Positions 21,001-64,000 of a stretch of DNA of 64,000 bases are shown here, piece after piece. The notes beneath the pieces are model-generated. The model saw only the letters and a list, made by a program, of their open reading frames with translations, was not told where the DNA came from and did no database searches. A program made the translations under genes and the position numbers. Source of the stretch: Thuidium tamariscinum. Its lineage: Eukaryota; Streptophyta; Bryopsida; Hypnales; Thuidiaceae. Numbering within the stretch: the first letter of the stretch is position 1; each line of letters opens with the position of its first letter. Location of the stretch: contig OX344749.2 of NCBI GenBank assembly GCA_947034885.2, forward strand, positions 32,421,182 through 32,485,181, written 5' to 3'.

Positions 21001-22024
21001 CTAACTTTTAGGATTTGCGCATTTTGATGAATCTGTCAGGCCAGGGTTGTTAGGAATGTCCGTGAGAGTAAGGAATGACTCCTTATTTGCGACAATCGGA
21101 CATCATTCGCTCCTGATACGCCGGTCAACCCGCCGCCAACTTGTAACTTCCAGTGAAATTCGATGTCGATGCCGGTTCTGGTAGTTGGGAATGTCGGAAT
21201 GTCTTCAAACTTGACTGGGCGCTTATTAAGCACACAAAAACCTATCCTAATTTTTAGTGAGATTTTACCGCATCATAAGTAATTTCTATGATTTTACGAA
21301 CATTTCTATGTGCGGTTGACTTCCCATGGAGTCAATGTGGAATTTCGGAAAAATCCGAAGTAAATTGTGTAACATCTAGGGCACTCCTAGATTCTTGGTG
21401 TAAGTCCCACGCAACCTTGCACCTTTCTAATTTTAGCAATTTGGAATTACTTTGTCCAACTGGACAATTTAATTCCCGATGCCCGGGAATCTTGGACAAT
21501 TGTTTGATTCTTGTTCGCTCTTGGCATGCTCCTACCCTTGGAACACCTCTCTGTAGTCTTCAATCTCCAATCCTCCATCTTTTGTCATGTGAAATTCGAA
21601 TTCTCCAAATCCATTGTAGTGGTTTACCCTTTAAATCCAACTTATTCCAAAATTGAACTTAATCCCTGGTAACTCTTCTAGGCTCGTAGTAGACTCTTTT
21701 AACTTATTCAGTATGTCGTGTGCATCCTTAAAAGGTTGACTTTGCACAGACATTCGCTAAGACTGACTAACTCTCTATTCCTTATTTCTCTCGGAATTAC
21801 TACATCTTTACATAAACTTGCTTTGGAGACTTAGAATGATTCAAATTCCTAGGATTAGGAATTTTCCACCTTCTAAGTTGGTTTTCTACCATTTTGGCAT
21901 AGATTGACACCAAAACTCCCTCAACACTCTTTTTATGTCTTTTTCTTGAATATTTTGACTAATTTTCGATATTTAATCGTGAAAAATGGACCCAGAGTCC
22001 TGAGTGCCATCTCGAGGGCTCACA
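18060..22024 (+). mobile_element. 3,965-bp LTR-like element (solo LTR?) inside TNP2
   Basis: It starts TGTGAGC and ends GCTCACA, with a perfect 5-bp target duplication ATGGG at 18055-18059 and 22025-22029. TG...CA ends, 5-bp duplication and no transposase suggest a solo LTR of a retrotransposon with very long LTRs. An internal TATA motif (20455) lies in a hairpin also kept in the copy at 42429. Inside are a tandem duplication near 18760-18960, a GC-rich patch at 19520-19810, and two copies of a 30-odd base motif containing GGAGGTACACATGACAG (about 20093 and 20176). The longest frame (19479-19823) is composition-driven. Orientation is assigned by the TATA motif only. Confidence 0.75.
20455..20461 (+). 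promoter_or_regulatory. TATA-like motif in the LTR-like element
   Basis: TTATATA sits in the loop of an imperfect hairpin (AACCTCGAGGGGGGCCC on the left, GGGCCCCTCTCGATAATT on the right). The same hairpin and motif are preserved in the second copy at 45339-45345, suggesting a retained core promoter. Confidence 0.45.
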
Positions 22025-22500
22025 ATGGGCAACGTCTCGGAGCTCAGGGGTCATAACATATGGCTTTCCAGCACCTTGGAGGACCTCTTCCGCTTCACCA
22101 TATTCTTTGTCTTCGTCCCACACTCGTCGTTGTGTGGCTTCAAATTTATGGAGGTGCTGAGTAATGAAGCCTATGCACTCGTCCTTGAGGTAACCCTCAG
22201 CCATGCAAGCCTCTGGACGTGCCAAATTGCGCACGTAATTTTTTAATACCTTCATGTATCTTTCGATGGGGTACATCCACCTTGCACTCACAGGTCCACA
22301 GAAGTCTAACTCTTTGGCAAGGTGACAGAGAAGGTGAGTCATGATGTCAAAAGTTGAAGGCGGGAATTCTATCTCCAACAAGGCCAAGCTTTCCGCAACA
22401 TCCGCTTCTAGTGATGGAAAGTCCATAGGGTTGTAAACCTTTGTGCACAAGCGTCGGAATACCTTGCACATGCGCATGACAGCCAAACGTGGGCTGGGCT

Positions 22501-23131
22501 GTAGGGTAGATGCATACTACGCTGTACCAATATGGACTGTCACAGTCCTTAATCCAGTAGGATGTTTTGGAATTCCTATAATTTCAAATAGAAACAAATT
22601 GTGCAATATAAAAAAGGATTCATTTTCATGTTGTATACTTGATTATCTATGCATTGCAAAAGAAATATTGTACAAATAGTTTATATTCTATTTGTAAAGG
22701 ACTTTTATATGGATTCTTTATATACTGTCACAGTCCACAGCATTCACCATAAAGACTCATTGTTCAATAAAGAATTCAAATATTTTGCAAAAGAAGGAAT
22801 TATATTTAAATAGGGTTATATATGATAAAATGCTTAGGTTTAAAATATGTTGAATTAGACACCTAAATTTGGAGATATGGACTATTATCTATCTAGAATT
22901 GCCATTAAATTTTGGGGATTGATTTGACACATTTAAAGTTAAAATTTTAATATGTTGTCTTCACTAAATGTTCATACAAGTGTTTATCTAGAATGGTATT
23001 TTTTTTCAAATCATTTTCTTATCATCTTCAACAACTTATAGACAATTGAATCCATCCAATGTATAAAATGCCATTAAAAATGGACTAAAATGATGCCAAA
23101 AGTGGCATAGCATAGTATGCATTTGCCCTGC
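22501..23131. mobile_element. About 630-bp non-autonomous element with 23-bp inverted ends
   Basis: The ends 22501-22523 and 23109-23131 are inverted repeats of each other with four transition-type differences; the shared core is ATGCATACTA. The segment interrupts the TNP2 coding sequence between LMQ and PSPRLAVMRM, where the family reads straight through. No clear target duplication beyond a possible 3-bp CTG. No coding capacity. A cryptic intron is a less likely alternative because the left end lacks a GT donor. Confidence 0.7.
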
Positions 23132-23614
23132 ATGAGACCTTTAAGCACTAGCGGCATTACCTGCTGCATTAAGACGTGGTAATCGTGACTCTTGAGCCCG
23201 CCAAAATTCTTCTTCCGAATGCATTTGCCCAAGTTTGATCCATAGCCACTCGGTGTCTTCAGCGGCTCTATGGTTCTTGCAAACTTGTCAAACTCATCAT
23301 TCGTTAGCACATACGACGCTCTAGGCTTGACCATCTTTCCTGGCCTTCGAGGATTAGGAGTCAACCACAGGTGCGGCCGCATATTCTGCCTTTGCAAATC
23401 TCGCCTGACTTTGATAGTGTCTTTCTTCACAGTTATGGTCTTCAGCAAATTCTTGGCCAAGTTCATTTCACAGTGCATTCCGTCGAGTGTGTAATGGATA
23501 AGGAGATGCTATTAGGAAAATAACAACTTAGACGGTCAGAGATCTTGAAGTCCTCATGGAAACACAGAACACATTTCATTAATCTTATGGGCGTTTCCCT
23601 CCAACTTCACAACA

Positions 23615-24245
23615 ATATGCGCAACCGTGTTACACGGACGACACTTAGCAGTCGTCCTACAATTCCTACGATAAAGTGTGACTTGTATATGACTTTCACA
23701 GCACTTCTACAAGACTAGGAGATGACTTTTACATGTGCCTACAACTAGTACATGACTTCTCGGCTTGACACTTGTTCCACTTGTATGGTGTGGGGACAAC
23801 GACTTAGTCTACAACCTAGACCAAAGTGCCAATAGAAAATGGAGTGCTCCAATTTTGTGTACAAGTTTCTTTATCTATATTTCCATGTTGTGTATGTTTC
23901 CTACTTAAGGGTCATTCAAACGCGCTAAACAATCACGACCACCCATTATGCATTCTTCACATAGACCACCTGCAATCTAGTTGGTAACTCGAAAATCCAT
24001 GCACAACACGCAATTACCAATTATGGTTATGCTGAAATTCTGACTTATTGTTGAGGCCTTAATTTCATGTAAGCATCTTCCCTGGTTACTACTTTAGATA
24101 AATGCGTAGTCTGTTACAGTGACAATGCTTAGCAATCGTCCTATAGTCGCGTAGGAAATGCAACATCTACATGATTCTTAAACCACTTCTACAAGACTTG
24201 AATGTTACTTCACTGATCTTATACGACTGGTAAATGACTTAGGCG
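23615..24245. repeat. Diverged direct repeat in the TNP2 intron
   Basis: Two units of roughly 150 bases (about 23615-23770 and 24105-24245) share the order TTACA, ACACTTAGCA-like, TCGTCCTA, CACTTCTACAAGACT and ATGACTT words. They lie in the intron between the two TNP2 exons (23509-24261). The TGACTT words resemble the clusters at other positions in this CACTA region. Confidence 0.5.
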
Positions 24246-24900
24246 TCCACGGAAGGCTCACCATCCAATATGGCAATGTGTGCAGAATGCTCAGGCGCTT
24301 GACTCCATGTACTTTTGAAGGGTCTCCATTCACGCCATCGATGTTGCCATTTTCTTTCTACGCCATGTAGTCCGCTACATGCTGCATCTTCTCCTGAATT
24401 GAAACAAAATGCGGTCGCTGGCGGTTTTCGATTTGACCATTGAAGTGCTATTTCATGGCATCTGATCTATAAGGGTGCTGTGGTAGCAACCAGCGCCTTG
24501 TGCCACCGTAAGTGCACTTCCCAAACTCAACAGAATGCTCTGCACCCAAATCTGCGCTATACCATGGGCAAGCGGCATAACCTTGATGTGCAAATCCTCC
24601 TACTGTTCCATAACCTGGGAAGTCATGAATAGTCCAAAGGAGCATGGCACAAAGTTCAAATGACCTCTGATGCAAGTCCTTCGTAACGTCGTATGCTGGA
24701 ACGCCGGTCCACAATTCCTGTAGCTCGTCCACCAGTGGTGCCAAGTACACATTAAACACCATAGAAGTTACGGACTCCTTGCCGGGAATTAGAAGTGCGA
24801 GTAAAATGAAAAACTTCTTAGTGGTCAGCCATGGGGGGAGATTATAGTTCAACAATAGAAGTGGCCACGTGGACCATGAAGACCAATTCTGCTTGAACGG

Positions 24901-25613
24901 TGTCGTAAGACTTGCGGTCTATCTGGAAAAGCATGGGGCTCCTGGCTGTAGTAGTATTTGTGGAAAGCTAAAGATGGAAAGAATAACTAAAAAGTCTCGT
25001 CTTCACTACTAAACCCAACTATAAACCAACAAAGTAGTTCTCAATTCATCACCTCTTCTTCTAGTCCTATCAGCTACAGCAGTACTTGAACCCACCAAGT
25101 TTGCCCACTGCACCTTCTGGACTAAAAAAAACAGCCTTTTCCTCTCAAAAGAACAACCCTCATAACTCAAAAGAACAAACCCTCATAGCTTAGAAGAACA
25201 AACCCTCACAAGTCAAAAGAACAACCTCCCAACTAAAAAGAACAAACTCTCGCAAAGTACACAAAAGTAACCAAGCCAAAAGATAGTCTCTAGTTCCAAG
25301 TTTTGAGAACCTCCAAAGATACAAACTAAATGAGATAAGAAAAGATGAAACCAAAGATGGAAGCCCAGGCCCTAAATACCCACAGACGGGTTCCAAGGTG
25401 GCAAACCATATGGTTTAAATACCCAAACCTAACTTCCTGACGAGACAACTTCAAGACCTAACCCCCCTGACGAGACTAAATCTTGACTGTCTAACTTCTA
25501 CAAGAAGCTAACCATCTGACCCCGTAAACGGCTAACCCTCTTTTCGGCTTGGAACTATGTTTTAGAGTAGTAAGATGTCTATGTTAATATAGTAGACGGC
25601 CCACATCACGACA
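24901..25613. mobile_element. 713-bp solo-LTR-like insertion in TNP2
   Basis: It begins TGTCGT and ends ACGACA, with 4-bp duplications ACGG at 24897-24900 and 25614-25617. Removing it together with one duplication restores the TNP2 frame exactly at VNP/FKQNW. TG...CA ends and the short duplication suggest a solo LTR. The inner ends also pair weakly beyond the first eight bases, so a small inverted-repeat element remains possible. No coding capacity. Confidence 0.75.
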
Positions 25614-26856
25614 ACGGGTTCACCCCATCAGCTGCCAATGCTAAGTGAACATTTTTTGGATCATTTCTAAAAGTGAGATCCACATTTTCGTGAAAATACT
25701 TCCATGCCTTCGAATCACATGGGTGTCTCACAAGCCTGTCCCCTCCATTTTGGTCACTCCGATTCTCAGCATGCCATACCTTCAACTTTGAAATCGCTGG
25801 ACTTCGAAACATACGTTGAAGCCGCGGTATGATTGGAAAGTATCTAAGAACCTTCAAGGGAAAGCAACGCTGCTTCTCATCTTTGTAACGACGTCCATCG
25901 CACTTGGGACATCTAAGAGCATTCTCGTGTTCACCACGGAAGAACACACATCCTCGCTTGCATGCATGTATGCTATTGTAAGTCAAACCCAACTTTGAAG
26001 TCAAAGTTTTTGCGGCATGGTATGTCTTCGGCAAAGTGTTTTGCTCCGGGAGGATATGCTGGTGAAGGACGCTAAAGAGTTCGTTGGCGCAGTTGTTTCT
26101 CACCCCATGTATAGTGCAAAGATTCATGAGCAGCACGGTGGCAGCTAATTTGCTGGAACGGACACCATCATATAATACTTTCATGGACTCCTTCGAAGTC
26201 GTGGCATCAAAGCAGCCTTCGTCAGGACCTACATCTGCATTCATTTCACCGCATGTTTGGAGATCACCATCTTCGTCATTGCCCTCATCCATCAGGCGCT
26301 TATGAATGGATTCTGCTATTGCAAATGCATTGGCGACCTCCCGCTGTACCCTCTCTACGGCATCTTCTGAGTTGGGCAGATCTTCTATTGCTTGGTCGAC
26401 CATGCCTTGAGTATGTACATCAACATCCACCTCTGTTTCCACGTGCTGTATTGGTGCCCAGAACTGATGTTCCCAGTTGTCATCAGAAGAGTCCTTGTCG
26501 CCTGGTCCTCTCCACGTCCGACAACTAGGATGCCTTCTGTTTTGGATGAGATGGGCTCTCACATTCCGAATTAACCTCTTCCTACGTCCATGACATTTTG
26601 TGCAAGGGCAGTGCATTCTCTCCATATTGCATTGTGTTGCACGTTGATGCTCACGAATCCACAATCGGTCATCACGTAGTCGTTGCCTTTGAATGTCTAA
26701 GAGAGGTAGGTGTGCTGGCATCATGGTCTCTACGTCTGCTCTTCACAAGGACATTTCGGATCGTCATAACTGATTCTTGACTTCTGTGGATCGTTCCACA
26801 AGGACTCCAAATCTTCATATAACGTGAGTGCGATTTGAACAGAATTCCAACATACT

Positions 26857-28061: not shown

Positions 28062-28394
28062 TACTATAACAAAACATGGTCGAAAAAAACTGTAGTCAAA
28101 ATTGAGTGTGGTTTTTTTTGCCACGTTTTTGTGCATGCGCGCATGGTGGACAGCCAATGTTTTTTGCAATTTCCCACTGAATTTTTTTGAATTTGGAGGC
28201 ATATAATATACCATTGGAAAGGTATTGAAAATATCTTTTCAATGGTATATTACACGCCTCTAGATTCCAAAAATTGCAATGGAAAATTGCAAAAAACATT
28301 GACTGTCCACTACGCGCGCATGCACAAAAACGTGGCAAAAAAAACCGCACTCAATTTTGACTACGGTTTTTTTCGACCATGTTTTGTTATAGTG
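28062..28394. mobile_element. 333-bp CACTA MITE, copy A
   Basis: It has long inverted arms ending ACTATAACAAAACATGG and CCATGTTTTGTTATAGT, with a 3-bp duplication CAC (28059-28061, 28395-28397). The first base of the left end has changed from C to T. The same length as the copy at 31547, which lies in the opposite internal orientation. Confidence 0.9.
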
Positions 28395-29330: not shown

Positions 29331-29667
29331 CAGGGTTGTCTATCCAGATGTGACATGGGCATTTTACGTCATGATGTCACGTCACGTCCGTCATGACGCG
29401 TCATGGATCCTGACATCCCTAACCCTAACCCTAAAATTTCAGAAAATTTTGAACTTTAGTTTCATTTTTTCTTACAAATATTAATGGAATATCAATTGTA
29501 CTACCCCTATTGAACATATCAGTCCAATGTACAACCTTCTATGTAAAGAGTTTTGCAAAATTCCTTCAAATTTTTAAAATATTCCATCATGACGTCGTTC
29601 ATGTAAAACGTCACGTCACATCCTGACGTCACGTCCGTCCAGACATGACGTGACACGAACAACCCTG
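29331..29667. mobile_element. 337-bp hAT-type MITE, copy 2
   Basis: By eye identical over its full length to 4168-4504 and in the same orientation, with its own perfect 8-bp duplication TCAATGAC (29323-29330, 29668-29675). Two copies with different duplications and no visible divergence mean very recent movement. Confidence 0.95.
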
Positions 29668-29675
29668 TCAATGAC

Positions 29676-31546: not shown

Positions 31547-31879
31547 CACTATAACAAAACATGGTCGAAAAAAACCGTAGTCAAAATTGAGTGCGGTTTT
31601 TTTTGCCACGTTTTTGTGCATGCGCGCGTAGTGGATAGCCAGTGTTTTTTGCAATTTCCCACTGCAATTTTCGGAATCTAGAGGCATATAATATACCATT
31701 GAAAAGATATTTTCAATACCTTTCCATTGGTATATTATATGCTTCAAAATTCAAAGAATTGCAGTGGTAAATTGCAAAAAACATTGGCTGTCCACTACGC
31801 GCGCATGCACAAAAACGTGGCAAAAAAAATCGCACTCAATTTTGACTACAGTTTTTTTCGACCATGTTTTGTTATAGTG
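31547..31879. mobile_element. 333-bp CACTA MITE, copy B
   Basis: Termini CACTATAACAAAACATGG and CCATGTTTTGTTATAGTG, with a 3-bp duplication GGA (31544-31546, 31880-31882). Nearly perfect long inverted arms. It ends only 13 bases before the ATG of the TNPA-like gene at 31893, so it has landed in that gene's leader or core promoter. Confidence 0.95.
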
Positions 31880-50168: not shown

Positions 50169-51560
50169 TGCTAGATTGTGAGCCTGCGAGCTGCGAGCAG
50201 GATTCTACGAGCGTTAAGTTCAAAAAAATTTAAAAGTACTTAAAAAGTTGAAAATATTTCTGAAAATAGAATACATCTAAAGTTTTTGATCAAAATTTTC
50301 TATTTTTAGTAAATTTTAGTATCTATTACCATAGACCTATTACTGTGAACCTATTACCGTGGTTTTGTATAATTCAAATGAAAATTAGAATTTTCTGTAT
50401 TGTTTAAAATAATAGGAGTAGACATTATGAAAATGATGAACTCAATTGATGTGAAAGATGAATGGAGATGGAAATAAGTTCATATAAAATAATGATTGAT
50501 TACTAACCTATAGCAACGTGGGTCCTCTCAGGGTTGAATAGTTGATGGGAGGGTGCCAATAATTTTCTCTTAATGTCTTGTTGTTGGAATTCTTTGAATT
50601 TTAGAAAACAAATTTGTTGATAAAAATTATTTTTATATCTAATGATCTTTGTTACATTGAATTTTATTTTGGTTGATCATCGTCTTGTAGCATCATGGAT
50701 CCTCTCAAAGTCAATGGAGAAGTATCAATACTTCCGCCTTGATTTGTAAGTTTGTAGCCTTGTTTAGATTTTAGAAACAAAAAATTGTTAATAGGATTTC
50801 ATAATATGTAAAAATAGCTTAGGTGCACCAAATTTCATTTTTGGTGATCACTATTATGTAGTAGTTTGGATCCTCTTGGGGGCCAATGGTAGGTACCTAT
50901 ACATCTGTTTTGATGTGCTAATAATTGGACTTATTAAGATTTTGGAAGAAAATTTTTGGTTGATAGGGGATTATTTCTACAAGGATAGAGCCTAGTCACA
51001 CCAAATTGTTGATTAGTTGATCATTGTCCTCTTGTGGGAATTTTTAGCACCAAAAAGAAGGTTGAGCACTCACTCCCCTCTTCTAGTTGAGCTATCCTCG
51101 GTGCCGAGGCGAGTTTTCTAGCTGTGGAAAAAAAAAAGTTTTTTAATTTTTTTAATTTTTTTTTTAATTTTTTTTTTTAATAAAATTTTCATTCTCCTCG
51201 GCGCCGAGGAGAGCCAAACCCTAAGTTCTCCTTGTAGCTTGGGGGCTTCTCTCAGTGCTAGAGCCCAAGTCTTGGAAGGGAGTAATTGTTAAAATTAAAA
51301 TCTCAATGAAACAACTTTAGCTGATTTCAAATGAATCCTAATTAATAACCAATTTTTTTTTCTAAAATTCTAGCAAAGTCCAATAAGTAGCACATTAAGG
51401 TTGTTGAAGGAACCACGGTAATAGGGTCACGGTAATAGGTTCATGGTAGTCGATATTAAAAGTTTCCAAAAATAATAAATTTTAATCAAACTTTTTTTAC
51501 TAGAATCTCTAAAAAAATCATAGGCTCATAGGCTCATGCTCGCAGGCTCACAATATAGCA
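50169..51560. mobile_element. 1.4-kb element with long inverted arms
   Basis: The termini TGCTAGATTGTGAGCCTGCG and, inverted, TGCTATATTGTGAGCCTGCG match. Similarity of the arms continues inward for roughly 200 bases (repeated CTATTACCGTG words at about 50330-50370 and inverted at 51409-51455). No clear target duplication and no transposase. Long arms suggest a Mutator-like non-autonomous element. Confidence 0.6.
51096..51211. repeat. Two short palindromes around a poly-A/T patch
   Basis: CCTCGGTGCCGAGG (51096-51109) and the 18-base palindrome centred on CGGCGCCG (51194-51211) flank an 80-base run made almost only of A and T. Confidence 0.5.
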
Positions 51561-52147
51561 GGGTTGCTAGCAGGCGAGCGGGGGAGCAGGAGCCTGTGAG
51601 CCTGTGAGCTTGTGAGCGGGAAATTAATTTTGAAAAAAAATTGAGTTGACCACCTATGATCGTGGATTTTAGGGTAACAAGAATTAGAGTTTAGTACCTA
51701 TGATCGTGGACTTTAAACGTTTAGGCGACAAAGAAGATATGATGTCTATTTCAAAGATGTGACTACAGAAGTCACTTTTTGTTTTCTTCTTCATTTTCTC
51801 TTTGTAGACACTTATGATCATGGACATTGTATACACAAGAGTAGGGATATAAAATCTAATTGTGAGAACCAAAGCACTTAGGTTTATATTGTCGATTAGC
51901 TGTAATTTAGAATATTAAAACTCTTTTAGGGTTTAGGGATAAATTAAGGAATGTGAAGGCAAAATGAAAACAACAAAGAACATCTCATAAATACCCAAAC
52001 CTTGAAATCACAAAAGGCATCAATTTGAAATACTCTAATTTGATGCAACTCATTCACTAAATAAGTCAATCTAGGTGTTGTGGAAAGAAGATTGATTTTG
52101 AGATGTATAATGAAGAGAAAGAATTGGATGGTTTAGGGTTAGGGTTT

Positions 52148-52159
52148 GTCGGATCCGAC
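52148..52159. promoter_or_regulatory. GTCGGATCCGAC palindrome 1, downstream of the ParB-methyltransferase gene
   Basis: A perfect 12-base palindrome followed by GGAATTGTACATG and a TGCCTTCTT word, shared in part with the intronic site at 54011. It lies about 235 bases beyond the methyltransferase stop codon. Function is inferred only from recurrence. Confidence 0.55.
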
Positions 52160-52394
52160 GGAATTGTACATGTTGCCTTCTTGCCTCAAAATTTATTTAT
52201 TTATTATTTTTGGTGTAGGTTTTGGGAGAACTAGCAAGAGCCATTGCCTTAGATGTTTTCAAAACAAAAATCAAATAAATAGAGAGAGAAATTTGAGACT
52301 TCCAGAAGTAGCCATAAAACACACAAATCCAATCCAAATAAAATCCAAACAATACAAAATAGTAAGACTCAAGAGATTAGTCAATCTCAAGAAT

Positions 52395-55300
52395 CTAAGT
52401 GGCTGTGGACTCAGTCACTGAATCTAATCCTGTAGAGGACTCTGAGGACTCCCGTCCCTCAGATGCAGAAGCATCTATAAACTGTAAGACATTGAGGGCA
52501 TAAGTGTCTTTGCGGCGTTTTGATTTGGAACAACCAAAATTTGCAAAGGCACTTGCCATCTGCTCAGCATAGGGTGGTAGCTCAAAAGGCTTCTCTGGAC
52601 TAACGACAAGCCTTTGCTTTTGTTCCATGACCTCTCTCAAGATCAATCCACAACCTCTGCAAAAATGGAAGACATTATATTAGTCTTTGCAAATGTGATA
52701 TGAAGAAAAATAATAAAGAATGAAAGAAGTTTCCACTTACTTACTGGATTTTTCCTTGCGAACAAACTTGCGAGGCACAATAGGCGCGTCTTGCACATCC
52801 ACTGTCAAGTCTACTGTTCTCTCGGGGGTTGGAGCCACTGCCATTGAGGGTGATGACTTCTTCATGGGCTTCAAAATGGCATTGAAAACATCTTTGTCCC
52901 CCTCAAAAGCTAGAATGTTGCGGCCAGTTCCTCTACAAGCCAAAATGCAAGCACCTAGGGCATTCATGTAATGAAAATGTGTTAGAGAGATGACAAAATT
53001 GTTACAATGACATAGAAGTGTGAAATATTTAAATTGGAGACAAACCTGTGGATGCCGTGCAGTCCACAATGACATCGCCTTCATTGCTTGTGGCTTCAAG
53101 GAGGAGGGTGAAGAACCTCGGATCTTTTTCACGTGGGCCTCTCCATGGCTTCTTCCCATTCATGGAGATGTCATCTGCATGCATGTAATTCATGAGCATG
53201 TCATCATTCTCGACATCCACCCCAGCCTTCTTCATCATCTCAGTACGCTTGAAAGCAAATTTGGATTCGCCTTTTGCTTTGAGGTCCTTGACAAGGAGAG
53301 TGACTCCAAACTTCTGTGTCTGCAACATATATGACACAAGAACATTAGAGATCAATGAATAGAACTTTAAAAGAAGATAGGTGACAAAAACTTAAGCATT
53401 TGTACAGAAATTACCGTCTTTGTGGTGTCCGTTGGCGAGGTGAGATGCATGCGGTTCATGCCTAGCCAGTCCTTCTTCTTCTTGAAGTCAAATGCTTCGC
53501 AAACTCCTGCTAGATCTTCCCTGGATGCAATGCTGAAGGAGTGAAACATAATGATGCATCCATCATCGTGCAGATGCTCTACTGCAAAGGTGCATGTGGA
53601 TTGCAAAGCATTCGCTTCTAAATCCGCATTCCAATTTGGCACCTCCTTCGACGTAAGAGAAATGCCTGGCACAGGCAAGTTCTCTGGACAGTCAATGAAG
53701 ATGACATCAACACCAGCCCTTGCATTGGCCACACCTTCAAACATGCGAGTTTGGCCCACTGCCATCTGCAAAAGCACATTTCAATAGAATTTCAGTATAT
53801 TAGTATTGCATACTTTTCTACCTTTCAAAGCAGATTCATAATATTTAGTACAACATTAGGAATTCTAGGGTCATTTAAATAAAAGTCTGAGCTGAAAAAG
53901 AAATTACATTTGTCAAAATGTTCAACAATTTTTAGAGAAAAAAAAACCATATGAAAGTATGTAACGTTCAGTAGGAAAAAAACCAAAAAAAAAGTAGTTT
54001 AGGTGATTCCGTCGGATCCGACGGAATTGTAAATTCTGCCTTCTTTTCTTACTAATTTTTTCAAATACAACAATTCTAAAATACAAAATGTAATTGTGGA
54101 CCACATAGAAATTTTGCTTCAATGTTTCATTTTAGCAACTTTGGTACATTGCATCCATATCATTGACAACAAGTAAAATAAATTTGAGCAAAGATGTTCA
54201 AATAGATCACCTTAACCAAGTACTTCAAGACCTCGTCATAGGCACCCTGTCTTTTGTCCTCCATATCCATGGCAATGTCCTCAATGCAAATATTAAGGAT
54301 TAAATCCTCAGTCTCTGGCACATCATCGTCGGAGAGGACCATGGCTTGAGTGACTCGTGAAATGACATCTTCAGTGAGCTGTGAGATGGTGACTTTCCTT
54401 GGTACTCCGCCTTGTGTTTGATCCACAGTGGAGGAAGCCAAGACTTGCCCTTTCTCTTCCACTTTCTTCTTTCCCTTGGCCTTAGTCTTCTCTTCCTTCT
54501 CCTTCTCTGCTTCTTTCTCCGCCTTCTCGGCCTCTTTCTCCGCCTTCTTTGCTGATTTCTCCGCCTGCTTTTTCTCCTTGGCCTCTACGATGAGTTGATT
54601 CTTCACTTCTTTCTTTCGGTCCAGTGCATCCCTCTTGTTGATGGCCCTCTTTCTAGCATCATCATCCATGCCGATGAACTCGTCAACATCCTCCAAATCT
54701 ACTACCTCCTTGCCTTCCAATGATGCCCTCAGTTTAGCCTCCGAATTATGGGTGAACTCCAGTGTGCAGTCCAAGTACCAACCCGCGCCAGAGAGATGAG
54801 CAGTAGTGTAGGTGCGCAATTGATGTGGGCTGAACATGCATGAACTCGAGTTGCGGTCGAGGAAGCGTGGAAGGAATTGAGGGAGGTCCAGTTTTGCAAT
54901 GGCCCCCTTTGCTTCAAGCTCTAACTTGAAGTACCTGTAATTCAATCATAATGAGTTATATGGAGCACTGTTCAATCTCAAAATGAAAGAGTAAGAGCAA
55001 TATATATCATGGAAGTTGTAAATTACAGTTTTTTGAAGGGTGGAAAAAATGCCAAGACAATACAAATTCAAGATTTATAATGAAGTAGAAGATGCTATAG
55101 AATTTCGAAAATTACAAAGTATACAATGATGCCACAAAATTCCAAGAACTAAAGAAAATGACATACCGATAAAGGACTCTACGCACTACAGCGTTAGAGC
55201 CTTCGTGAGATGAAAAAGTTTGGCCCCTCTTGAAGTACTTCGAGCCCTTGAAGTAATTCATGAAGCCATGTTCCCAAATCTTCTGCCTCCATCCTTCAAT

Positions 55301-57103
55301 GTACTCTGGTAGCCGCTCTGGTTCTGGTTTTACGTTGTAGTCGATGGAAAGGTTGTCTTCCTTTACAATTTTGTCGAAGAACTCCACTGCAGCATCTTCT
55401 ATCTGAAAAATGGGATATAGTGAAAAAGCTTAGTGGTATTACCAAATATTTTAATGAAAAAAGCTACCAAGTGTTTTGTTATTCAATGAAAGGAATTAGA
55501 TATTAAACACTTACCCCAGCGTACCAAGTGCACTTCACCAGAAATTGAGGAAGTAAGAGTTCAGAGACAGGTTTTGGTGGCAACTTCCTTGATTCGCGGT
55601 TTGGGGTAGAAGAGTTCCACCATTGAAGTATCTTTGTCTTGTGCTTTGCAGTCATCTTGCAAGTGGCGACCAACTAGAGCTTCTCCAAAGTCATTTCAGG
55701 CACCTCGTAGTTGCCCCAATGCTTTTCCACCTACAAGAAGATTTCAGTTAGTTTTTCAAAACGGATTTGAACTGACTTTTGAAGAATTTAAGTGAAGTTG
55801 GAGATAAAATTCTGAATTGTACCTCTTTAAGGAAGTCCACTCCGTTTGCTGGGTTGGCCACCGCTAGCAATTTGAACATCTTGACCATGGCTGCCTTTGT
55901 TCGTTCCCTTGCTCCCAACTTCATTGCTTCTGCTGCTTGTAGTGGTACACTTCCAGTCTCTTGTGTGGCCTCCATGTACCTTCTTACAACTGCATCTGCA
56001 GATTGTGAAATTTCTTGCTGCACAAGAATCCCAAATAGATGTGAAATCAATATGGACATTGATGGTTTTTTAAAAATAAAAAAAAATTTACCAAAAACAA
56101 GTTGAAGGAGCTTACCCGGAAGATGAAAGATGTGAAGACCTCGGGTTGAATTGAGTACCACTTTTTAGTGACCTTGTGCTCAAGGCACCTCTTCCTCTCT
56201 GCAGGCCTAAGTAGAGCTGCAAACTTTGCTATGGGAAGCATTCCGTACTTCTGAATTTGGTACAAGGTGTGTACCAAGTTCGTCTTCACGTGGGAGTCTT
56301 CTACAGACCTGAAAACCATTCAATGCAACATAAGCCGAAGATCTAAACTACCTCCAAGAAAGTACAACATTCAAATTGAATATTTTTTGGAAAAATAAAA
56401 ACAATAAGAAAGAGAGAACTTACTTGTTTACGTCATGCATGACTTGCATGACAAGTTCATTCCGACCTTTCGTATCTAACATGATAGAATCGACACTGCA
56501 ATGCTCCTCCGAGTGCTTAGAGATGTAGTTCATCCACGCAATTCGTCTGTGGTTCCCATCGCAAATGAAGATCTTCAAGTTCTTCAAGAACTGAAGCTCT
56601 GGCTTGGACTCGAACTTCTGTTTGAAGACTTCATTCTTCTCCTTCCAAATGGGGTCCCAACTATCCATCTCCTGTTGGGTGAACTCTTCAGTGTTCCCAT
56701 CTTCGTTTGTAGCTGACACATAGAATACCGCAGCACCATCTCGGTACCCTCCACCTGCAAACTCTTGCTCTAGCTGCAGGATATCAGATGCCAATGCGGG
56801 TCTGACCATTGGCATTGCCACAAGCCTACACAAAGGTATGTGCATTCGAAATACCTCCTCAGGCTTCATCCGAAGTTGCCCCAAAAGCTTCACAACATCA
56901 CCTTTTTGAATGTGCCGGAGTTCTTCCTCGGACATCACCTTCTCCTCCTCACGGTCTTGAATGACAATCTCCATGTCTTCTTCTCCTTCATCTCCATCTC
57001 CTTCTCCTTCTCCTTGCTCAATCTCTGGCTGTCTCTGGTTTTGAGGGTTTGGCGTTTCCAAGATTGTCTCTTCATACGTGGTTTTTGAAGGGGAGATGTC
57101 CAT
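52395..57103 (-). CDS. ParB-like domain / DNA N6-N4 methyltransferase-like protein, ten exons
   Basis: Exons: 56424-57103, 56116-56308, 55823-56017, 55515-55730, 55167-55402, 54211-54934, 53415-53765, 53046-53319, 52741-52954, 52395-52656. All introns are GT-AG and all phases agree: 1,115 codons with the final TAG. Residues about 85-210 are ParB-like, with box CDGNHRRIAWMNY (DGNHRR 182-187). The middle is helical, with a Lys/Glu-rich coil at about 630-665. Residues about 749-1000 are a beta-class methyltransferase fold in permuted order: motif IV-like IDCPEN (773-776) precedes motif I-like VDCTASTGACILACRGTG (about 950-967). One in-frame TAG at codon 375 (55674-55676) stands where Gln would fit; a start of that exon just after it is a weaker alternative. 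Bacterial and phage ParB-methyltransferases have this architecture. DCPE replaces the usual DPPY, so activity is uncertain. A TAG acceptor directly before the ATG suggests an upstream leader exon. Confidence 0.75.
54006..54027. promoter_or_regulatory. GTCGGATCCGAC palindrome 2, intronic
   Basis: The 12-base core at 54011-54022 extends to a perfect 22-base palindrome. It lies in the intron between the coiled-coil exon and the motif IV exon of the ParB-methyltransferase gene. The right flank (GGAATTGTA, then TGCCTTCTT) matches site 1. Confidence 0.6.
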
Positions 57104-57327
57104 CTAGGAGTATAAATTCAAATTTAATAAATAAAATATTCACAGTGAACAAAAACAGTAATATAATTTAATATAAACAAATTGATACATTTGTAAGAAA
57201 ATGCTTTACTTCAAGTAAAGAATAGTACTTGCAAAGCGAGGATCAAGCACATTTACAATATAAAACTAGCCTTCGTGAGGGTACATCCTGGAATAGTATT
57301 TGCTATTCTTAAGGTTTCCAAGTCTAT

Positions 57328-59634
57328 CTAATCTATGATCTGCACATCATCATCCTCATCCTCATCAGAGCTGAGGATGATGATTTCATCTGACTGAAAC
57401 AGGTCCATATTTGACACCTCACTCTCCCCTGTGTACAAATCAAAAAACTCTACACTGCTGGAGTTCGAGGGCTCATAATCAGAGGGATACTCCTCCTCCT
57501 CACTGAAAGATGAGAACCACGGGCCATTGCCCCTAGTCCCACTAAACATAGTAGTTTCGAATGCATCAACGGCTCGCTCTGCAGCATCCATGACGTCGTC
57601 GAAACTCACCAAGTTTTGATGCAAATTGCCTTCATCCGTAGAGAGGGAAACACCAGAGTGTGGAGATTTCTGGCGCTTAGAGGATCCACCAACTTCCATA
57701 CTTGGGACACCTTGCACCACAGGACCTTGATTCTCTGTAGATAATACCTTTTGGCGTTTGCCCCTTCCTTGGTCACTCTGGACAATGAAGTACAACACTT
57801 TACAATCAATCTTGAAGTCATATTTGGAAGTAAATGAAATTTGGCCAATTTTTTGAATGTATAATACATCATTCTGCCAAATGACTTAGCTATTCCAATC
57901 ATGAGAGAATTTAGACACTTCTTCAAGAAAATTGACAAGTGTAGGATGGCATACTTGTTGTTGAAATTCTTCACTGCCTTCACCCACGTTGGTAGCTCCA
58001 GCAGTGGCCTAATCCAAAAACAATCAAGGTTAGCATCTATAGATAATAGGATTGTATGTTTAATATACTTTCAAGAAGCACAGTAGAAAGTTTGAACTTC
58101 AAGTGAAGTATTTTGACAACTGAAACTAGAGTTGAAAATGACAATGAAATAGAGTTCCAATGATAATTATGGAACATCTAAGAAACAAAACGTTAGAGAA
58201 CGTGGGGGTAGAGGATAAAAAAGAACTTTCATCGTTCTGAAAATGATTTAGTACTGCCAAAGCAAAATATTCTTGACCAGTTCAAGTGCGAGAATCATCC
58301 AAGTTCCAAAAAATGGTGAGATTTTGGGGTACTACGAGCTGCAGCAGAAAACCAAGTCGGATCCGACTTGGTTTTCTGCTGCAGCTCGTAGTACCCCAAA
58401 ATCTCACCATTTTTTAGAAATTTCCTTAAATAAGTGCATGAGGGCTGTGCAAATCTTCAAAATTTCTCTCTCATACCATTACTTCTAGAGTGACAGGCTA
58501 AATTATGGACTTCTAGCAAGTCTTGACATCCACGAAGACAAATCTGTATCCATGAACTGAAAACAGCAGTGTATGTTTTATGTGAAATTCTCGGACTTAG
58601 TGTCTTGATACTTGAGGTTCTCAATAAGTTTCAGTACCGAATCAGTCACTAAAGTCTCCCCTGACTACAGGTCAGTTGAATCAAAATCCAAACTAGAACT
58701 TGAAGTTTGCGTGGTCAACAGGTTCAAATTCAAAAACGGAACTTCCAAATGCTACCGAATCAGTCAGTGAACTCTCCTCTCTCCGCAGGTCAACAGGCTT
58801 GAAGTCAAAAACGAAACATCCAGATGCCTCCAAGTCGGCAAACAAAGAACTGAAAGTGAACAACAGATTAACTGAATTAAGAAAAGACGGCACTTTCTTG
58901 AGTACCACGAGGCATCGCAAAAAACAAAGTCGGATCCGACGGGGTTTCGTGCGGTGCCTCGTGGTACCCCCGAAATGCCGTCATTTGAAATTTGTTTCAA
59001 AGCATCGACCTGGAAAGGAACTGCACAATAAAATGAGTTCAGTTGTGAACTTGATCAACCTGGACCTCAAAGTCAAAACCAGACGCCGCCACGACATCGG
59101 AAATGCAGAAATTGAAATCAACCAGGTGCCTACTGAACTTGAAAAAAATTGCAAGATCTGATTTTGAACTTCATCTGTGGGTAGTACGAGCCAACCGGGA
59201 AAACCACGTCGGATCCGACTTGGTTTTTCAAGCTGGCTCGTGCTACCCACACTCTGCATTCACAACGGTCAAAAATTCTCAAAGCACGATGCGGGGGCAC
59301 GATCGCGCGCTGGTGGCGCGCTGGTGACGCGCTGGTTGCGCCGGGAGCGTGGGGGTAGCGGGCGCGCCGGGCGCGCTGGCGCTCTGGGCGTGGTGGCGCT
59401 GCGGGCGCGGTGGCAGCGCGAGCACGGGCGCGATGGGCGTGGCGTGTCACGAGGCGCGCGGACACAGGGGGAAAGTGAAACCATTCCAGATTGCAAGACA
59501 AGCCTGTACTCACTCCAAGCGGCTCAGAGAAACAAAAAAAAATTGAATCAGTGAGGCCGAATCACCTCATGCTGCGCCACCTGCTCCTCAGGATTCTCTC
59601 CGAGTCGTGCACGGCTCCGTGTAGTCCTCGCCAT
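57328..59634 (-). CDS. Small acidic nuclear-type protein with SUMO-interaction-like C-terminus, three exons
   Basis: Exons 59566-59634 (MARTTRSRARLGENPEEQ), 57955-58008 (ATAGATNVGEGSEEFQQQ) and 57328-57777, all phase 0 with GT-AG introns (GAG/GTGATT to GGATTAG; CAA/GTATGC to TGTCCAG). The product is 191 residues. It has a basic start and two KRQK boxes, a helix (VMDAAERAVDAFETTMF) and a Glu/Ser-rich tail ending IIILSSDEDEDDDVQIID. The hydrophobic run followed by SSDEDE is the classic SUMO-interacting pattern. The stop lies 224 bases before the ATG of the ParB-methyltransferase on the same strand, so the two may be co-transcribed or this may be its 5' part through alternative splicing (a GTGAGT lies in phase in exon 3). 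An acceptor-like TTGTTGCAG directly precedes the ATG. No known family recognised. Confidence 0.6.
58308..58415. repeat. Perfect 108-bp palindrome centred on GTCGGATCCGAC (site 3)
   Basis: Every base from 58308 to 58361 pairs with 58362 to 58415, with no spacer. The arm includes GGTACTACGAGCTGC and the core is at 58356-58367. It lies in the first intron of the small acidic gene. Confidence 0.95.
58620..58830. repeat. Diverged direct repeats between the hairpins
   Basis: Two or three units sharing ACCGAATCAGTCA, CTCTCC, GCAGGTCAACAGG and AAAAACGRAAC words (near 58635, 58690 and 58750). They alternate with the hairpins, so the intron seems built from a repeated unit. Confidence 0.5.
58886..58982. 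repeat. Imperfect hairpin centred on GTCGGATCCGAC (site 4)
   Basis: Arms of about 48 bases (GACGGCACTTTC, TACCACGAGGCA and their complements) with scattered mismatches. The core is at 58929-58940. The conserved ACGAG word sits at the same distance from the core as in the neighbouring hairpins. Confidence 0.85.
59177..59250. repeat. Imperfect hairpin centred on GTCGGATCCGAC (site 5)
   Basis: 74-base palindrome with arms GTGGGTAGTACGAGCC and GGCTCGTGCTACCCAC, with the core at 59208-59219. Third member of the same hairpin family. Confidence 0.85.
59285..59470. repeat. GC-rich GCGCGCTGG-type simple repeat
   Basis: Low-complexity GCGCGCTGGTG/GGCGCG units next to hairpin 3, in the first intron of the small acidic gene. 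Open frames here on both strands result from composition. Confidence 0.7.
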
Positions 59635-61211
59635 CTGCAACAACACTAAATGAGAGCTCTGGGAGGAGTGAATGGGATGTGAGTGCCGCAGAAGATGATT
59701 TTTGATAGAAAAATCAAATCGAAAGGAAGGCTTGGAGCGCCAAGCCGCTTAATTTCAAGCCGCCACCATTCCAGCGAATTTGTCATCTGAAAGTATCTTC
59801 CACAGTCCTTCCCGATTGATGGTGTCCCGTAGTTGCAGGAGAAAGCAAGCACGGCGCGCTAGAATGGTGGCGGCGCCACTGAGGGCCGAATCTTGCCCAG
59901 ATTTCGAGCAAAACTTTCGGCAGTCGTTGACTTCCGAAATGCCAATGAAGGCACGCAATAGGGTAGCCGCTGATATACTGTGGGGTACTTTTGGAAATTT
60001 GTGAGAGAATTCAATTCGGTAGGTGCGATAGCTTGCCTCTTCAAAATTTGAGAAAGTACGGTGGAAATTCTCCCAACATTCCTCGAGGAATGTTCTTGAT
60101 CTACGCTATTTTTGATTTCTGTACGCTGGCATGGCTTCACCTCGTGGATCCGAAATTGGAAAACTAATTTTACTTGAGTCCAGGATGCTAACAAACCGAA
60201 CAGCTCTGGATTGATCCGGGTTTACGGTGTATTTCTTGACCTTAAAAAAAATTTAGTATATTTTTTACTTTAAGAGAAATGAATCAAGAATCTAACACAA
60301 GTTATTTCATAATTTTTTTATCATTATTGAATTAGTTACGAATTCTCAAACACAAACTTGGCTAGAATTCCTGTTTGTGATCATTTGCACTTGGGAATGC
60401 ATCTATGCATATTTAGAGAAGTATGAATTATAAAACTGAAAAATGGCATTGCTCTATTTATGAAGTCATTGAAATGGTTTCCCGATGTGCATCTTACTTC
60501 CTCTAAAGTGAATGCTTGAATTCATATTTTTAATTATTTTGAGTGTGTAGTTATTTGACCTATTTTTAATTTGAAGTAAATTGGTAGACATCTAGACACT
60601 TAGCTAGGAATAAAATAAGTATTGTTCTCCAACCATTTATTGAAGAATAAAAAAAATGACATGAAGCTCCATCATTAGAGAGAAGTGACTTTTCTAGAAT
60701 TCTCATGTCCATTTTTGAGCCCCTATTGCGTTGTTGGAAATGGTTGGTTTAATATTCTAAACCCCAAACCTTCCCTAATACTGAATTCTCTCAATTTTCA
60801 CTACAGGTTCCAATGAGTATAGGAAAATCTCTCTGCTTTGTCGACATAGTACTCAAAGAATTTCTTTTATTTATACAATTGAATGTCTAAGCTTCTCCTC
60901 CGACCCTAAGTCTCAATCAGAACTCACTGTTCATATGATTTACCGTTATTCGCAATCATTCCTCTCTGTCATTTCTACTCTAAGCAATGTCCTGACAATG
61001 CTCTCATAGTTGGCATTCAAACATGCACAAGAATGGCTCCTCTGTTTCTACTTGCTACTATTGCATCCCCTTCAATAGCTCTTATTAACAGAATAATTGC
61101 GCACAACTACGCCGGCACCTAAAGACCTGTTGTTCACAGAATTGATTCAATGTTTACAACTCTAACAACTTGGAATGCACGAGACTAGATAGATGCGTGC
61201 GATGGACTTAC
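59635..61211. other. No recognisable gene
   Basis: AT-rich DNA upstream of the small acidic gene. A 111-codon frame at 59859-60194 (-) has no recognisable motif. Leader exons of the 57-59 kb genes could lie here. Confidence 0.4.
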
Positions 61212-61406
61212 AATATACGTTTCCGGTGACTTAGTGCCCTCATCCTCGACATGCGCCTCCTCCAAGTACTCTTGCACAGAATCAGCATTCTGGTCCTCAG
61301 TATTCTTCGAATGATCACCTCCCTCTCCCTCGAAAGAATGAGACCTCTGCGACTGACTTGATTGACCACGACCTCACTTCGACACAGTCTTCTTCGCACG
61401 AGTCAT
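61212..61406 (-). pseudogene. First-exon-like fragment resembling the start of the small acidic gene
   Basis: ATG 61406 starts MTRAKKTVSK, TGA (61374-61376), GRGQSSQSQRSHSFEGEG, then NADSVQEYLEEAHVEDE, ending at a GTAAGT donor after 65 codons, phase 0. The basic start and acidic Ser/Glu-rich continuation resemble the exon at 59566-59634, and its phase would fit the acceptor before 59634. It may be a paralogous relic or an upstream exon of the same transcript. Confidence 0.4.
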
Positions 61407-61717
61407 CTTCGCTCTCCTCAAAGCTTTCCTAGAAGAATAGAAGAAAGAGCAGTGTTTCCTATGACTCTTACTTTGCTCCGAGAGGACAGGAAGTGCACTT
61501 GAGTGCTCTAAAATCATGAGTATATAGAACAAGTAGGTACTCCTGCTCTACACAAAAACGAAAGCTCCACTCAGAAGGTGACAATGAAATGAACTCCAGT
61601 GTTCCAAGAATCCCTTGTATACTTCTCTACAAGGCGCCGCCTCTGTACTTCACGCGTGTCATATGACATATCAATTCCGGCGCCACCAATTCGCAAAATT
61701 TGAAGGATGCACTACCC

Positions 61718-61918
61718 GAGGCAACTTGAAGAGACAGCTCTGGCAATTCTTGGAATTTGAAATTTGCACTGCTCGAGGCAACATGAAGAGACAACGCCGT
61801 CAATTCTTGAAATTCGAAATTTGCACTGCCTGAGGCAACATGAAGGGACAACGCCGTCAATTCTTGAAATTCGAAATTTGCACTGCTCGAGGCAACATGA
61901 AGGGACAACGCCGTCAAT
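61718..61918. repeat. 57-bp tandem repeat, about 3.5 copies
   Basis: Units start at 61718, 61775, 61832 and 61889 with GAGGCAACWTGAAGRGACA and carry TTCTTGRAATTYGAAATTTG. Later copies are nearly identical and the first is diverged. It lies about 460 bases upstream of the gene at 62381. Confidence 0.9.
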
Positions 61919-62299
61919 GTCAGTAGAATTATAGATTTGTATATTGAATGAGATCTACTGGAGACTTGGAGCCGTTTCAACTGACTCGCCAGGATAATAA
62001 TTATTTTGCCAACTGCCACAAATCCAACGGCAAAATATCTAAGTCCGCTTCAATTCAATACAAATAAGATCATTCTATAATTTAACCTAATTAGTACATA
62101 TAAAATTACGGGCGCTTCATTTTACTACACTAAGTAATTATTGTTGTACAGACTTTGCATTCACTAACTCTAATGTAATGTTCACATGTAAAACTATTGT
62201 TTAAACTTTATAGCTCCTCTACCCTTAAACCATCCACCCTTAATCCATATTGTCCTAGCTTCCATCATTTACAGATAATCAATGCCCCCTTCAAAGCCC

Positions 62300-62306
62300 T
62301 ATATAG
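62300..62306 (+). promoter_or_regulatory. TATA box
   Basis: TATATAG in CCCTATATAGATCC, 75 bases upstream of the ATG at 62381, implying a leader of about 45 bases. Confidence 0.65.
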
Positions 62307-62380
62307 ATCCATATGTCTTTTCTTCACTCTCTCAAGCCATTTCTACCCACATTTCTATCTTTTAGGCAATTGTGAGCGAC

Positions 62381-64000
62381 ATGGCAAGCATTCGCGTAGA
62401 TGGTCATCAGGTTCCGTTAGTCTTTCCTTTAGACCTAGAAGGTCGTGCTACTGTATTCAGCCACTTGCTTCATGTTCGATTTAAGTTTGTAGAGTCATCT
62501 ATCTACGTTGAAGAAGAGCTCTATTCTGAGTCTGGTGAATTACTTCAGTCAATCCCGCTTTCAAAATGTCTCTCTGATGAAGGGCATTGCTGGTATCTAG
62601 GTCTTGGGAACTATAGGGCTTACGGTCTCCCTTTGTCCATGTTAGCTTCGTCCACTGAGATAGCGAGTCGCCAGTCTGATAATTCTACAGTAAACAGATC
62701 TTCTGGACCTGAGAGTGCTAATCCTACTACTCCTGTAGGATGCTTCCCTACATTAGTACGAAATGAATTGCCTACTGAAGCAAAGGTAGAGTTGTTAGGG
62801 ACTATTGTTGAACTATCTAGTGAGTCTGAAGGCGAGTTTCCTTCCTTGACTCCTGACATGGAACCTTCCTTCGTCAAGAAAGAGTCCAATGACATCAGTC
62901 TTACGTACTCTATACAGAACACCTCCACTAGTACTTCTGAGCAACGTACCTTTTCACAACAAGTTTGTCATTCAAGTGTGGCGAGTATAACCAGTATAAT
63001 GAAATGCTTGAAGGGACTTTCTGGTCTTCACCGTTCAAGAAATGAACTCTCAACATTAGATATGAACGCTGTGAAGCACCACCAAGTGGAGTTCCTACCA
63101 CCGACTTACGACGGAGATGCCATCTTTGAACTACCGCCGTGTCGTGCCTCTTCTTCTTCATCTGCAGCTAAGAACTTGGAGGGAATGGACAAGCGGTACG
63201 ACGGACATGGTTGGTGCAAGCTAGTGACAACAAACATCCACAACTCGGACAATTTGAAGTTTCGTAAGTCATTCTGTGCTGGCCATCTTATTTGTGAAAA
63301 CCCTAGCTGCGAGTACTTGTCTAGGACTTCTAGGAAAAATGAAACAGAATGGATAGGTTCTACAATACTTCCTTTTGCAGTAGGAGTCGTTCCACCAAAA
63401 GATTGCAAACTAGTTTGTAAAGTTTGCAAAACAATACCTACATGCCTGAGCACCTGTGATGCTAGAATTTACTACTGCTACAGTGATAACGCAAATATGA
63501 CTAGGGCTGCTATTCACCTAGGAAACCACACTCACCCAGTAGCAAAAGGCATGTATAGAGATTCTACAAAAGAAATTACCGAACTCATAGCAAAACAAGT
63601 TGCCAAAACTCCTTCAGCTACAAACTCCGCCATAGCTTTATCTGCTAGCAAAGACTTCCTTACAAACCACCTTTTTCACCACGGAGAAGGAGAGAAGAAG
63701 ATATTGAAGGGAGAAGAAATGGAAGAGGTCATGGATCGCTTTCAGTTGCTAAGTAGTCCTAGTATACGAAATATTATCTCCTCTTTCCGATCAAACAACC
63801 AAGGAGGGGTCATTGACAACATCATGACCATGAAGAAGGAATCAAAGTTCGAGTTCATACACGATAGTGTCTTCCCAGGCCAAGGCAAAGAGAAGGTTTA
63901 TGTATTCAAAATGCTTATTGAAGGGCCTGGAAGTGGAGTGGACTTGGTAAGGCGCATGCAACCTGAAGGTGATCTACAAAATGCGTGGATGATGTTCGAC
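62381..64000 (+). CDS. Zinc-binding (WRKY/GCM1/FLYWCH-like) protein, 3' end beyond window
   Basis: The frame is open without a stop for 540 codons from ATG 62381 (MASIRVDGHQVPLVFPLD) to the window end. Residues about 85-200 are Ser/Thr-rich and disordered. From about 273 a domain begins (YDGHGWCKLVTTNI), followed by C299, C305, C310, C342, C346, C349, C355-x3-C359 and H383-x-H385 (LGNHTHP). The Cys pairs followed by HxH suit the WRKY-GCM1/FLYWCH zinc-finger superfamily, which is also used by MULE-type transposases and their derivatives. The downstream part (IRNIISSFRSNNQGG, VFKMLIEGPGSG) is helical and unassigned. No relation to the neighbouring genes is visible. It is probably TE-related, but intact here. 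Confidence 0.65.
   Translation, partial: MASIRVDGHQVPLVFPLDLEGRATVFSHLLHVRFKFVESSIYVEEELYSESGELLQSIPLSKCLSDEGHCWYLGLGNYRAYGLPLSMLASSTEIASRQSDNSTVNRSSGPESANPTTPVGCFPTLVRNELPTEAKVELLGTIVELSSESEGEFPSLTPDMEPSFVKKESNDISLTYSIQNTSTSTSEQRTFSQQVCHSSVASITSIMKCLKGLSGLHRSRNELSTLDMNAVKHHQVEFLPPTYDGDAIFELPPCRASSSSSAAKNLEGMDKRYDGHGWCKLVTTNIHNSDNLKFRKSFCAGHLICENPSCEYLSRTSRKNETEWIGSTILPFAVGVVPPKDCKLVCKVCKTIPTCLSTCDARIYYCYSDNANMTRAAIHLGNHTHPVAKGMYRDSTKEITELIAKQVAKTPSATNSAIALSASKDFLTNHLFHHGEGEKKILKGEEMEEVMDRFQLLSSPSIRNIISSFRSNNQGGVIDNIMTMKKESKFEFIHDSVFPGQGKEKVYVFKMLIEGPGSGVDLVRRMQPEGDLQNAWMMFD

Follow-up and report, generated by a model that had tools for sequence, protein, structure and literature searches.

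Methyltransferase-derived accessory protein and specific palindromic sites in a high-copy, putatively Mutator-like transposon of Thuidium tamariscinum

We analysed a 64,000-nucleotide stretch (the window) of the Thuidium tamariscinum genome (363 Mb, 19 contigs), which holds an intron-rich gene, the subject of this analysis, whose product joins a ParB-type motif to a bacterial-type methyltransferase-like domain. The genome gives six matches to the LEAFY family (PF01698; best E 1.6e-27), which is not known outside land plants and their close relatives. This gene, here called the accessory gene, does not stand alone in the plant genome but belongs to a high-copy DNA transposon of about 15.5 kb that also carries a transposase-like gene and a set of palindromic sites. 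The whole window copy of the element, G000:C1:32472740-32488295, is 15,556 bp long and runs past the end of the window, with the following parts:

51559..64000, minus strand: in-window part of the DNA transposon, Mutator-like by best class; the remaining 3,114 bp lie past the window end
51549..51558, no strand: 10-bp target-site duplication, CACAATATAG; its partner lies just past the far end, outside the window
51559..51601, no strand: terminal inverted repeat, CAGGGTTGCTAGCAGGCGAGC..., imperfectly matched by the far end, CAACGACGCTAGC...
52395..57103, minus strand: accessory gene for a ParB-motif and methyltransferase-like protein, ten exons
62381..64000, plus strand: first transposase-like exon, with a reading frame that stays open beyond the window end, to about 64540
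65191-66576 (extended coordinates), plus strand: transposase-like exon 2, with a SWIM-like zinc finger; one stop in the window copy

Similarity between copies ends sharply at window position 51559, and the far end was located from two copies extended by 10 kb. The element starts with CAACGACGCTAGC and ends with GCTAGCAACCCTG, and its terminal inverted repeats are imperfect and about 43 bp long. Visual inspection of the flanks showed a 10-bp target-site duplication in eight of nine copies with both ends read, including the window copy; it was not seen in the C8 copy (L031), both ends of which were read. Two further copies, in which one end was not found, stand outside this count. A 1,006-bp piece of the accessory gene matched the genome at 40 scored places out of 260 candidates (window included, 96-100% identity) and its 1,584-bp 5′ part at 40 scored places out of 318 (93-100% identity), while a degenerate pattern for CDGNHRR, a box near the N-terminus of the protein, occurs at 123 places (60 forward, 63 reverse; control 2 and 0). 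A preliminary description of this DNA had taken the gene for a bacterial-type gene long resident in a eukaryote, perhaps driving N6-methyladenine (6mA) on selfish DNA or controlling a mobile element. The intron-rich structure and the bacterial-type methyltransferase, both of which stand, would suit a host gene; however, the many near-identical copies, and the position of the window copy and the others examined inside a transposon that has terminal repeats and is flanked by 10-bp duplications, leave that view barely credible, the gene being multicopy rather than resident. The suggestion of control over a mobile element came close, since the gene itself belongs to the transposon.

The transposase-like gene has two exons and is divergent from the accessory gene. 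We call the element Mutator-like because of its target-site duplications; this is the best class, the transposase apparently being too diverged for proof by Pfam or hhalign. Indeed, Pfam models of Mutator-like elements (MULEs) gave no match to the protein, and SWIM reached E 0.12, under the cut-off. In hhalign comparison with MULEs, the second-D and CxxH regions were paired at a probability of 0.14%, which, with shallow alignments, is not significant, and alignment to MULEs of the same genome was also insignificant. The ratio of nonsynonymous to synonymous substitution rates (dN/dS) of this gene, with exon 1 of the C8 copy left out, was 0.12-0.20 in seven comparisons of distant copies, and 0.35 and 0.87 in two comparisons of near-identical window and C6 copies.

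The accessory gene is organized as follows:

57103-56424, 56308-56116, 56017-55823, 55730-55515, 55402-55167, minus strand: exons 1-5
54934-54211, 53765-53415, 53319-53046, 52954-52745, 52654-52395, minus strand: exons 6-10
56426..56848, minus strand: ParB-like stretch, residues 86-226, with IFICDGNHRRIAWM (GxxR-type P motif); limits set by eye
55674..55676, minus strand: in-frame TAG of the window copy, exon 4, codon 375
52860..53765, minus strand: beta-class methyltransferase-like domain, exons 7, 8 and the start of 9; motif IV DCPE, motif I DCTASTG

The gene extends from an ATG at 57103 to a terminal TAG at 52397-52395 through nine GT-AG introns with concordant phases, in agreement with the ten exons described previously, and the CDGNHRR box is likewise present in the spliced translation. 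For comparison, 20 of the 40 matched places were taken at 10 kb; L015, L020 and L022, which are interrupted or rearranged, were left out, and the other 17 were aligned with the window copy to give 18 rows. GT-AG is kept at all nine introns in 15 of the 18 rows, the window among them, and the exon structure is thus not a product of chance. The GC content of the gene is 0.53, 0.36 and 0.54 at codon positions 1, 2 and 3, and 0.29 in the introns. An open protein of 1,114 residues, as proposed in the preliminary description, was not recovered: the conceptual protein has 1,112 codons ahead of the final stop, among them the TAG at codon 375, which had been missed. Among 17 rows printed, only the window and L032 carry this stop.

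Profile comparisons identify the C-terminal part of the protein as a bacterial-type beta-class amino-methyltransferase fold, in which motif IV comes ahead of motifs X/I, the permuted order already recognized from the sequence. PADLOC model PDLC03371 matched at E 1.9e-10 (query residues 18-240 of 243 aa, model 29-253 of 260), and phrog_67 (E 6.9e-7) and DpnA from PDB (E 7e-4) matched across the part that binds S-adenosylmethionine (SAM). Of the two Pfam matches that the preliminary description had anticipated, N6_N4_Mtase (PF01555) was sub-threshold (E 0.013), the fold drawing its support from the other three matches. In the genome, an exon-by-exon search found no N6_N4_Mtase or ParB_N match at E 0.001 or better, and PDLC03371 found one weak place (E 5.5). 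Outside this genome, scans of viral contigs and genome contigs found no relatives of the methyltransferase half, and tblastn of this half against phages gave weak matches (447 records at E <=10, lowest shown E 0.03).

The methyltransferase-like domain is probably no ordinary enzyme. Eleven of 17 rows have DCPE as the catalytic motif, and the other six have a variant that differs from it by one residue, some variants being common to two copies; no D/N/S-P-P-Y/F/W was found in any of the 17 printed rows, and DPPY never. The motif I position, where DCTASTG spans the exon 8/9 junction, reads DCTASTGAC in most rows and not FxGxG, the SAM-binding motif of amino-methyltransferases. Because all 17 rows have DCPE or a one-residue variant of it, the 6mA activity suggested earlier is doubtful. 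The protein could nonetheless be an active 6mA or N4-methylcytosine (4mC) methyltransferase marking GGATCC or GATC in the palindromes, by which the element would mark itself, as the full-length match to a type II methyltransferase model and the GGATCC at the palindrome centre would allow. Given motif IV and motif I as they stand, and given that a change of SPPY to APPA ended 4mC addition by N4CMT of rotifers (PMC8885841), we find this decidedly unlikely.

Comparison of the copies shows that purifying selection acted on the accessory protein as the element proliferated, and that single copies then decay. We counted variants in 17 rows (L027 dropped), taking as shared, by a rule set post hoc, those present in at least three copies or in a copy pair with at least six common variants. 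Shared variants comprised 125 synonymous (S), 53 nonsynonymous (N) and 1 stop, against 110 S, 220 N and 15 stops among private ones (p 1.2e-16); simple sharing cut-offs at two and three copies gave p 8.7e-12 and 8.2e-13. Since shared variants are mostly silent and private ones are not, the protein was under selection during the spread of the element. Mean pairwise dN/dS was 0.21 (range 0.09-0.81, 12 copies). For transitions, N/S was 1.95 among private variants, which equals the value expected of neutral transitions here, 0.90 (3 stops) among those in two copies, and 0.26 (61 S, 16 N, zero stops) among those in at least three. Purifying selection is clearest in the ParB-like stretch (shared 20 S, 1 N; p 2.5e-6); the middle part had 59 S, 25 N and 1 stop (p 2.3e-9), and the C-terminal part 9 S and 6 N (p 0.12). 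The strong skew of shared variants to silent changes makes it highly improbable that a plant gene was captured as a Pack-MULE-like passenger, useless to the element, even though gene capture is frequent in MULEs (PMC6446971) and the copies studied were found via the accessory gene, so that gene-less elements would escape.

The decay itself bears a distinct signature. In the aligned gene region, 324 of 478 private changes are C>T or G>A, with per-site frequencies of 0.30 at CG, 0.30 at CHG and 0.11 at CHH, showing that C-to-T change at CG and CHG accounts for most of the decay in these copies. Such a pattern is expected of cytosine-methylated plant transposons, and we infer that the element has been subject to host methylation and silencing.

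Palindromic sites with the core GTCGGATCCGAC, centred on GGATCC, occur five times in the window, all within the element and outside the resolved exons:

58301..58422, no strand: long palindromic dyad, core GTCGGATCCGAC at 58356-58367
58882..58986, no strand: long palindromic dyad, core GTCGGATCCGAC at 58929-58940
59176..59251, no strand: long palindromic dyad, core GTCGGATCCGAC at 59208-59219
54011..54022, no strand: simple palindromic site GTCGGATCCGAC, intron 6
52148..52159, no strand: simple palindromic site GTCGGATCCGAC, downstream of the accessory gene

The genome contains 655 occurrences of GTCGGATCCGAC against one of its reversed control, and 101 of the 28-mer AAAACCAAGTCGGATCCGACTTGGTTTT against none of its control; the 20-mer CCAAGTCGGATCCGACTTGG was absent from the viral contigs searched. 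Among the 50 sites of GTCGGATCCGAC listed, all of them on C1, 39 have an intact CDGNHRR box no more than 16 kb away, compared with 0.75% of random positions; 43 are near a box or a gene match, and the other seven have no listed marker nearby. Simple sites occupy the interval between the two transposase exons, intron 6 of the accessory gene and the sequence downstream of that gene, and the long dyads (76-122 bp in the window) occupy the stretch separating the divergent units. The palindromes are concentrated in the element, in introns and between divergent transcription units. The intron-6 palindrome is intact in 14 of 18 rows. Noncoding 12-mers are intact in 10.8 rows on average if they lack CpG and in 7.8 if they have one, while the 17 12-mer positions with two or three CpG, which average 15, probably cover the intron-6 site itself; for this one site, conservation is merely suggestive.

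We compared the dyads in a set of 36 units from related copies (32 distinct 72-mers), chosen so that 27 or more of the 36 pairs around the core were complementary. In each half, the blocks 1-14 and 22-36 bases off the centre are fixed. The spacers, at 15-22 and 37-46, vary in sequence between units and are still largely self-complementary, with 199/256 and 255/320 positions paired (maxima of 2,000 shuffles 136 and 179), where the choice of units favours pairing within 36 bases and not at 37-46. When the stretches between the units were compared in the C5 and C6 copies, only the dyads aligned directly (pieces above 80 bp). Covariation of the spacer arms despite drift is what conversion would also yield, and the long palindromes might be by-products, that is, repeats that form hairpins, have no binding function and owe the likeness of their arms to intra-palindrome conversion. 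We regard this as quite unlikely, since the fixed blocks keep a constant spacing on both sides of the centre and the 12-bp core recurs as a short simple site in other parts of the element.

These features lead us to propose, tentatively and with less than even confidence, that the accessory protein is the element's own factor, which binds the palindromic sites and acts against host silencing or controls transposase expression. It would be an element-encoded, sequence-specific DNA-binding factor, predicted to recognise the palindromic dyads through its N-terminal ParB-like module and its non-canonical methyltransferase-derived domain, and to load onto element DNA. As an outcome, host silencing would be countered, or transposase expression and the divergent promoters would be controlled. 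We infer that the methyltransferase-derived domain is non-catalytic and that the palindromes are read by the accessory protein, not the transposase. Alternatively, the palindromes may be sites for the transposase or a host factor, with the accessory protein aiding transposition otherwise, like mudrB of maize MuDR, which is apparently needed for integration. Palindromes do lie between and inside both gene units, one of them between the two transposase exons, and MULE accessory proteins of unknown role exist (PMC6446971); the terminal repeats, however, which are the expected transposase target, have no palindrome, and this alternative seems to us somewhat unlikely.

Several results weigh against the proposal of an element-encoded palindrome-binding factor. 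The protein and the palindromes are linked by common membership of one element only, and the factor that binds the sites could instead be the transposase or one from the host. All 18 rows are damaged, 17 by a stop or frameshift and L031 by two altered splice sites. Private transversions have an N/S of 2.38 against a neutral 5.10, so private variants are not wholly neutral. A weak point is the methyltransferase region, where selection on the region by itself is only suggestive (shared 14 S and 9 N, against 25 S and 43 N plus stop; p 0.054) and where all variants in at least two copies give no signal (p 0.84); recurrent deamination is likely here, because most conflicting pairs in the region are C-to-T changes across otherwise unrelated copies. 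The ParB assignment, moreover, is unproven and depends on a single GxxR motif. ParB/Srx (PF02195), the second anticipated Pfam match, had no profile match in Pfam, PHROGs, NCBIfam or PADLOC. The N-terminal half had no match by tblastn against phages and no relatives in a scan of viral contigs, and PDB sequences did not support ParB. A hidden Markov model that we built from Spo0J/Noc, P1 ParB and two divergent ParB-like genes scored -0.5 bits, and 813 of 2001 shuffled or reversed sequences scored equally high. What is left of the ParB-like domain previously described is its GxxR-type motif: CDGNHRR, which fits the published GxxR P motif (PMC12704722), is unchanged in 14 of 17 rows, and DG.HR..A, a pattern chosen post hoc, is expected 0.00025 times per protein of the same composition, where GxxR alone is expected 2.8 times.

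The molecular detail of transposon escape from host silencing is known for few elements. A selected methyltransferase-derived protein and highly specific palindromes within one high-copy element provide a directly testable candidate protein-site pair; if the proposal is true, a bacterial-type DNA-modification domain would be owned by a plant transposon and not by its host.

The element also carries part of a third gene, placed between the other two:

57328..57777, minus strand: last exon of the third gene, encoding an acidic protein ending in EIIILSSDEDEDDDVQIID; in 19 copies, window included

We take this ending to have the look of a SUMO-interacting motif, and the final 90 residues are almost invariant by eye across the 19 copies. 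In 18 rows, third-gene variants present in at least three copies comprise 23 S, 11 N and 1 stop, those in two copies 21 S, 37 N and 1 stop, and private ones 19 S, 24 N and 3 stops; constraint over the full length of this open reading frame is not clear. Immediately upstream of the transposase-like start is a 57-bp tandem repeat with 3.7 copies (window 61708-61918). Element copies at 24.96-25.64 Mb of C6 form a segmental array, occurring as inverted pairs about 26-28 kb apart, with four pairs about 190-230 kb apart. C11, at 17.5 Mb less than 5% of the genome, holds 16 of the 42 left-end matches listed, two being short pieces; our guess is a repeat-rich chromosome, perhaps a sex chromosome. A repeat at window 12287-15032 also interrupts the element copy L015 (91%).

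Elsewhere in the window, two near-perfect 332-bp palindromes (28063-28394 and 31547-31878) are 94% alike in inverted orientation, and an identical 339-bp direct repeat (4168-4506 and 29331-29669) recurs 25 kb apart. Remains of CACTA-type transposons lie at 610-2172 and 21959-26742 (DUF4218, tnp2; DUF4216 under the cut-off). Searches of the window for tRNAs and against Rfam gave no match.

Target-site duplications of 8-11 bp, terminal inverted repeats, a SWIM-like zinc finger and an accessory gene are MULE features (PMC6446971), and the element resembles MuDR/Mu (mudrA and mudrB) in all four, its own zinc finger being a putative one. It differs from MuDR/Mu in a transposase that evades the Pfam MULE models, in its divergent units and in an accessory protein that is methyltransferase-derived; the word 'methyltransferase' is absent from the main text of that MULE paper (PMC6446971). 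Literature searches, limited to the collection of papers available to us, listed no MULE or other plant transposon that carries ParB or an amino-methyltransferase, and we are aware of no earlier account of such a combination. N4CMT of bdelloid rotifers is likewise a bacterial-type amino-methyltransferase in a eukaryote and linked to transposons, but it is a chromodomain fusion with SPPY that places 4mC at transposons, whereas here the motif is DCPE and the transposon owns the gene (PMC8885841). Phage fusions of a ParB-CTPase and an N6_N4 methyltransferase share the PF01555-type methyltransferase behind a GxxR motif region (PMC12704722); in the moss element, by contrast, the ParB fold is unconfirmed, a long middle region and a coiled coil are present, the catalytic motif is altered and the carrier is a plant transposon. 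Neither 'plant' nor 'transpos' occurs in the main text of PMC12704722, though its tree takes in eukaryotes.

The VANDAL/Hiun elements of Arabidopsis (VANA, VANB and VANC, the last an anti-silencing protein) are similar in having three genes in a MULE and scattered short noncoding motifs (PMC5735166, PMC10398659); in those elements, the motifs of VANC are placed in introns and in upstream regions (PMC5735166, PMC10398659). VANC, however, carries DUF1985/DUF287 (PMC5735166) and has no methyltransferase fold, and the motif here, known from sequence alone, is a palindrome set in long dyads. The accessory protein would be a functional analogue of VANC made of different parts. In an unlikely but specific variant, a plant MULE would have taken over a phage-type ParB-methyltransferase as a parS-like system, in which the protein loads on symmetric dyads across the element and maintains its chromatin in an open or organised state; by descent, this anti-silencing device would have no relation to VANC. 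VANC of VANDAL is the nearest functional model, and the phage ParB-methyltransferase fusion the nearest molecular one.

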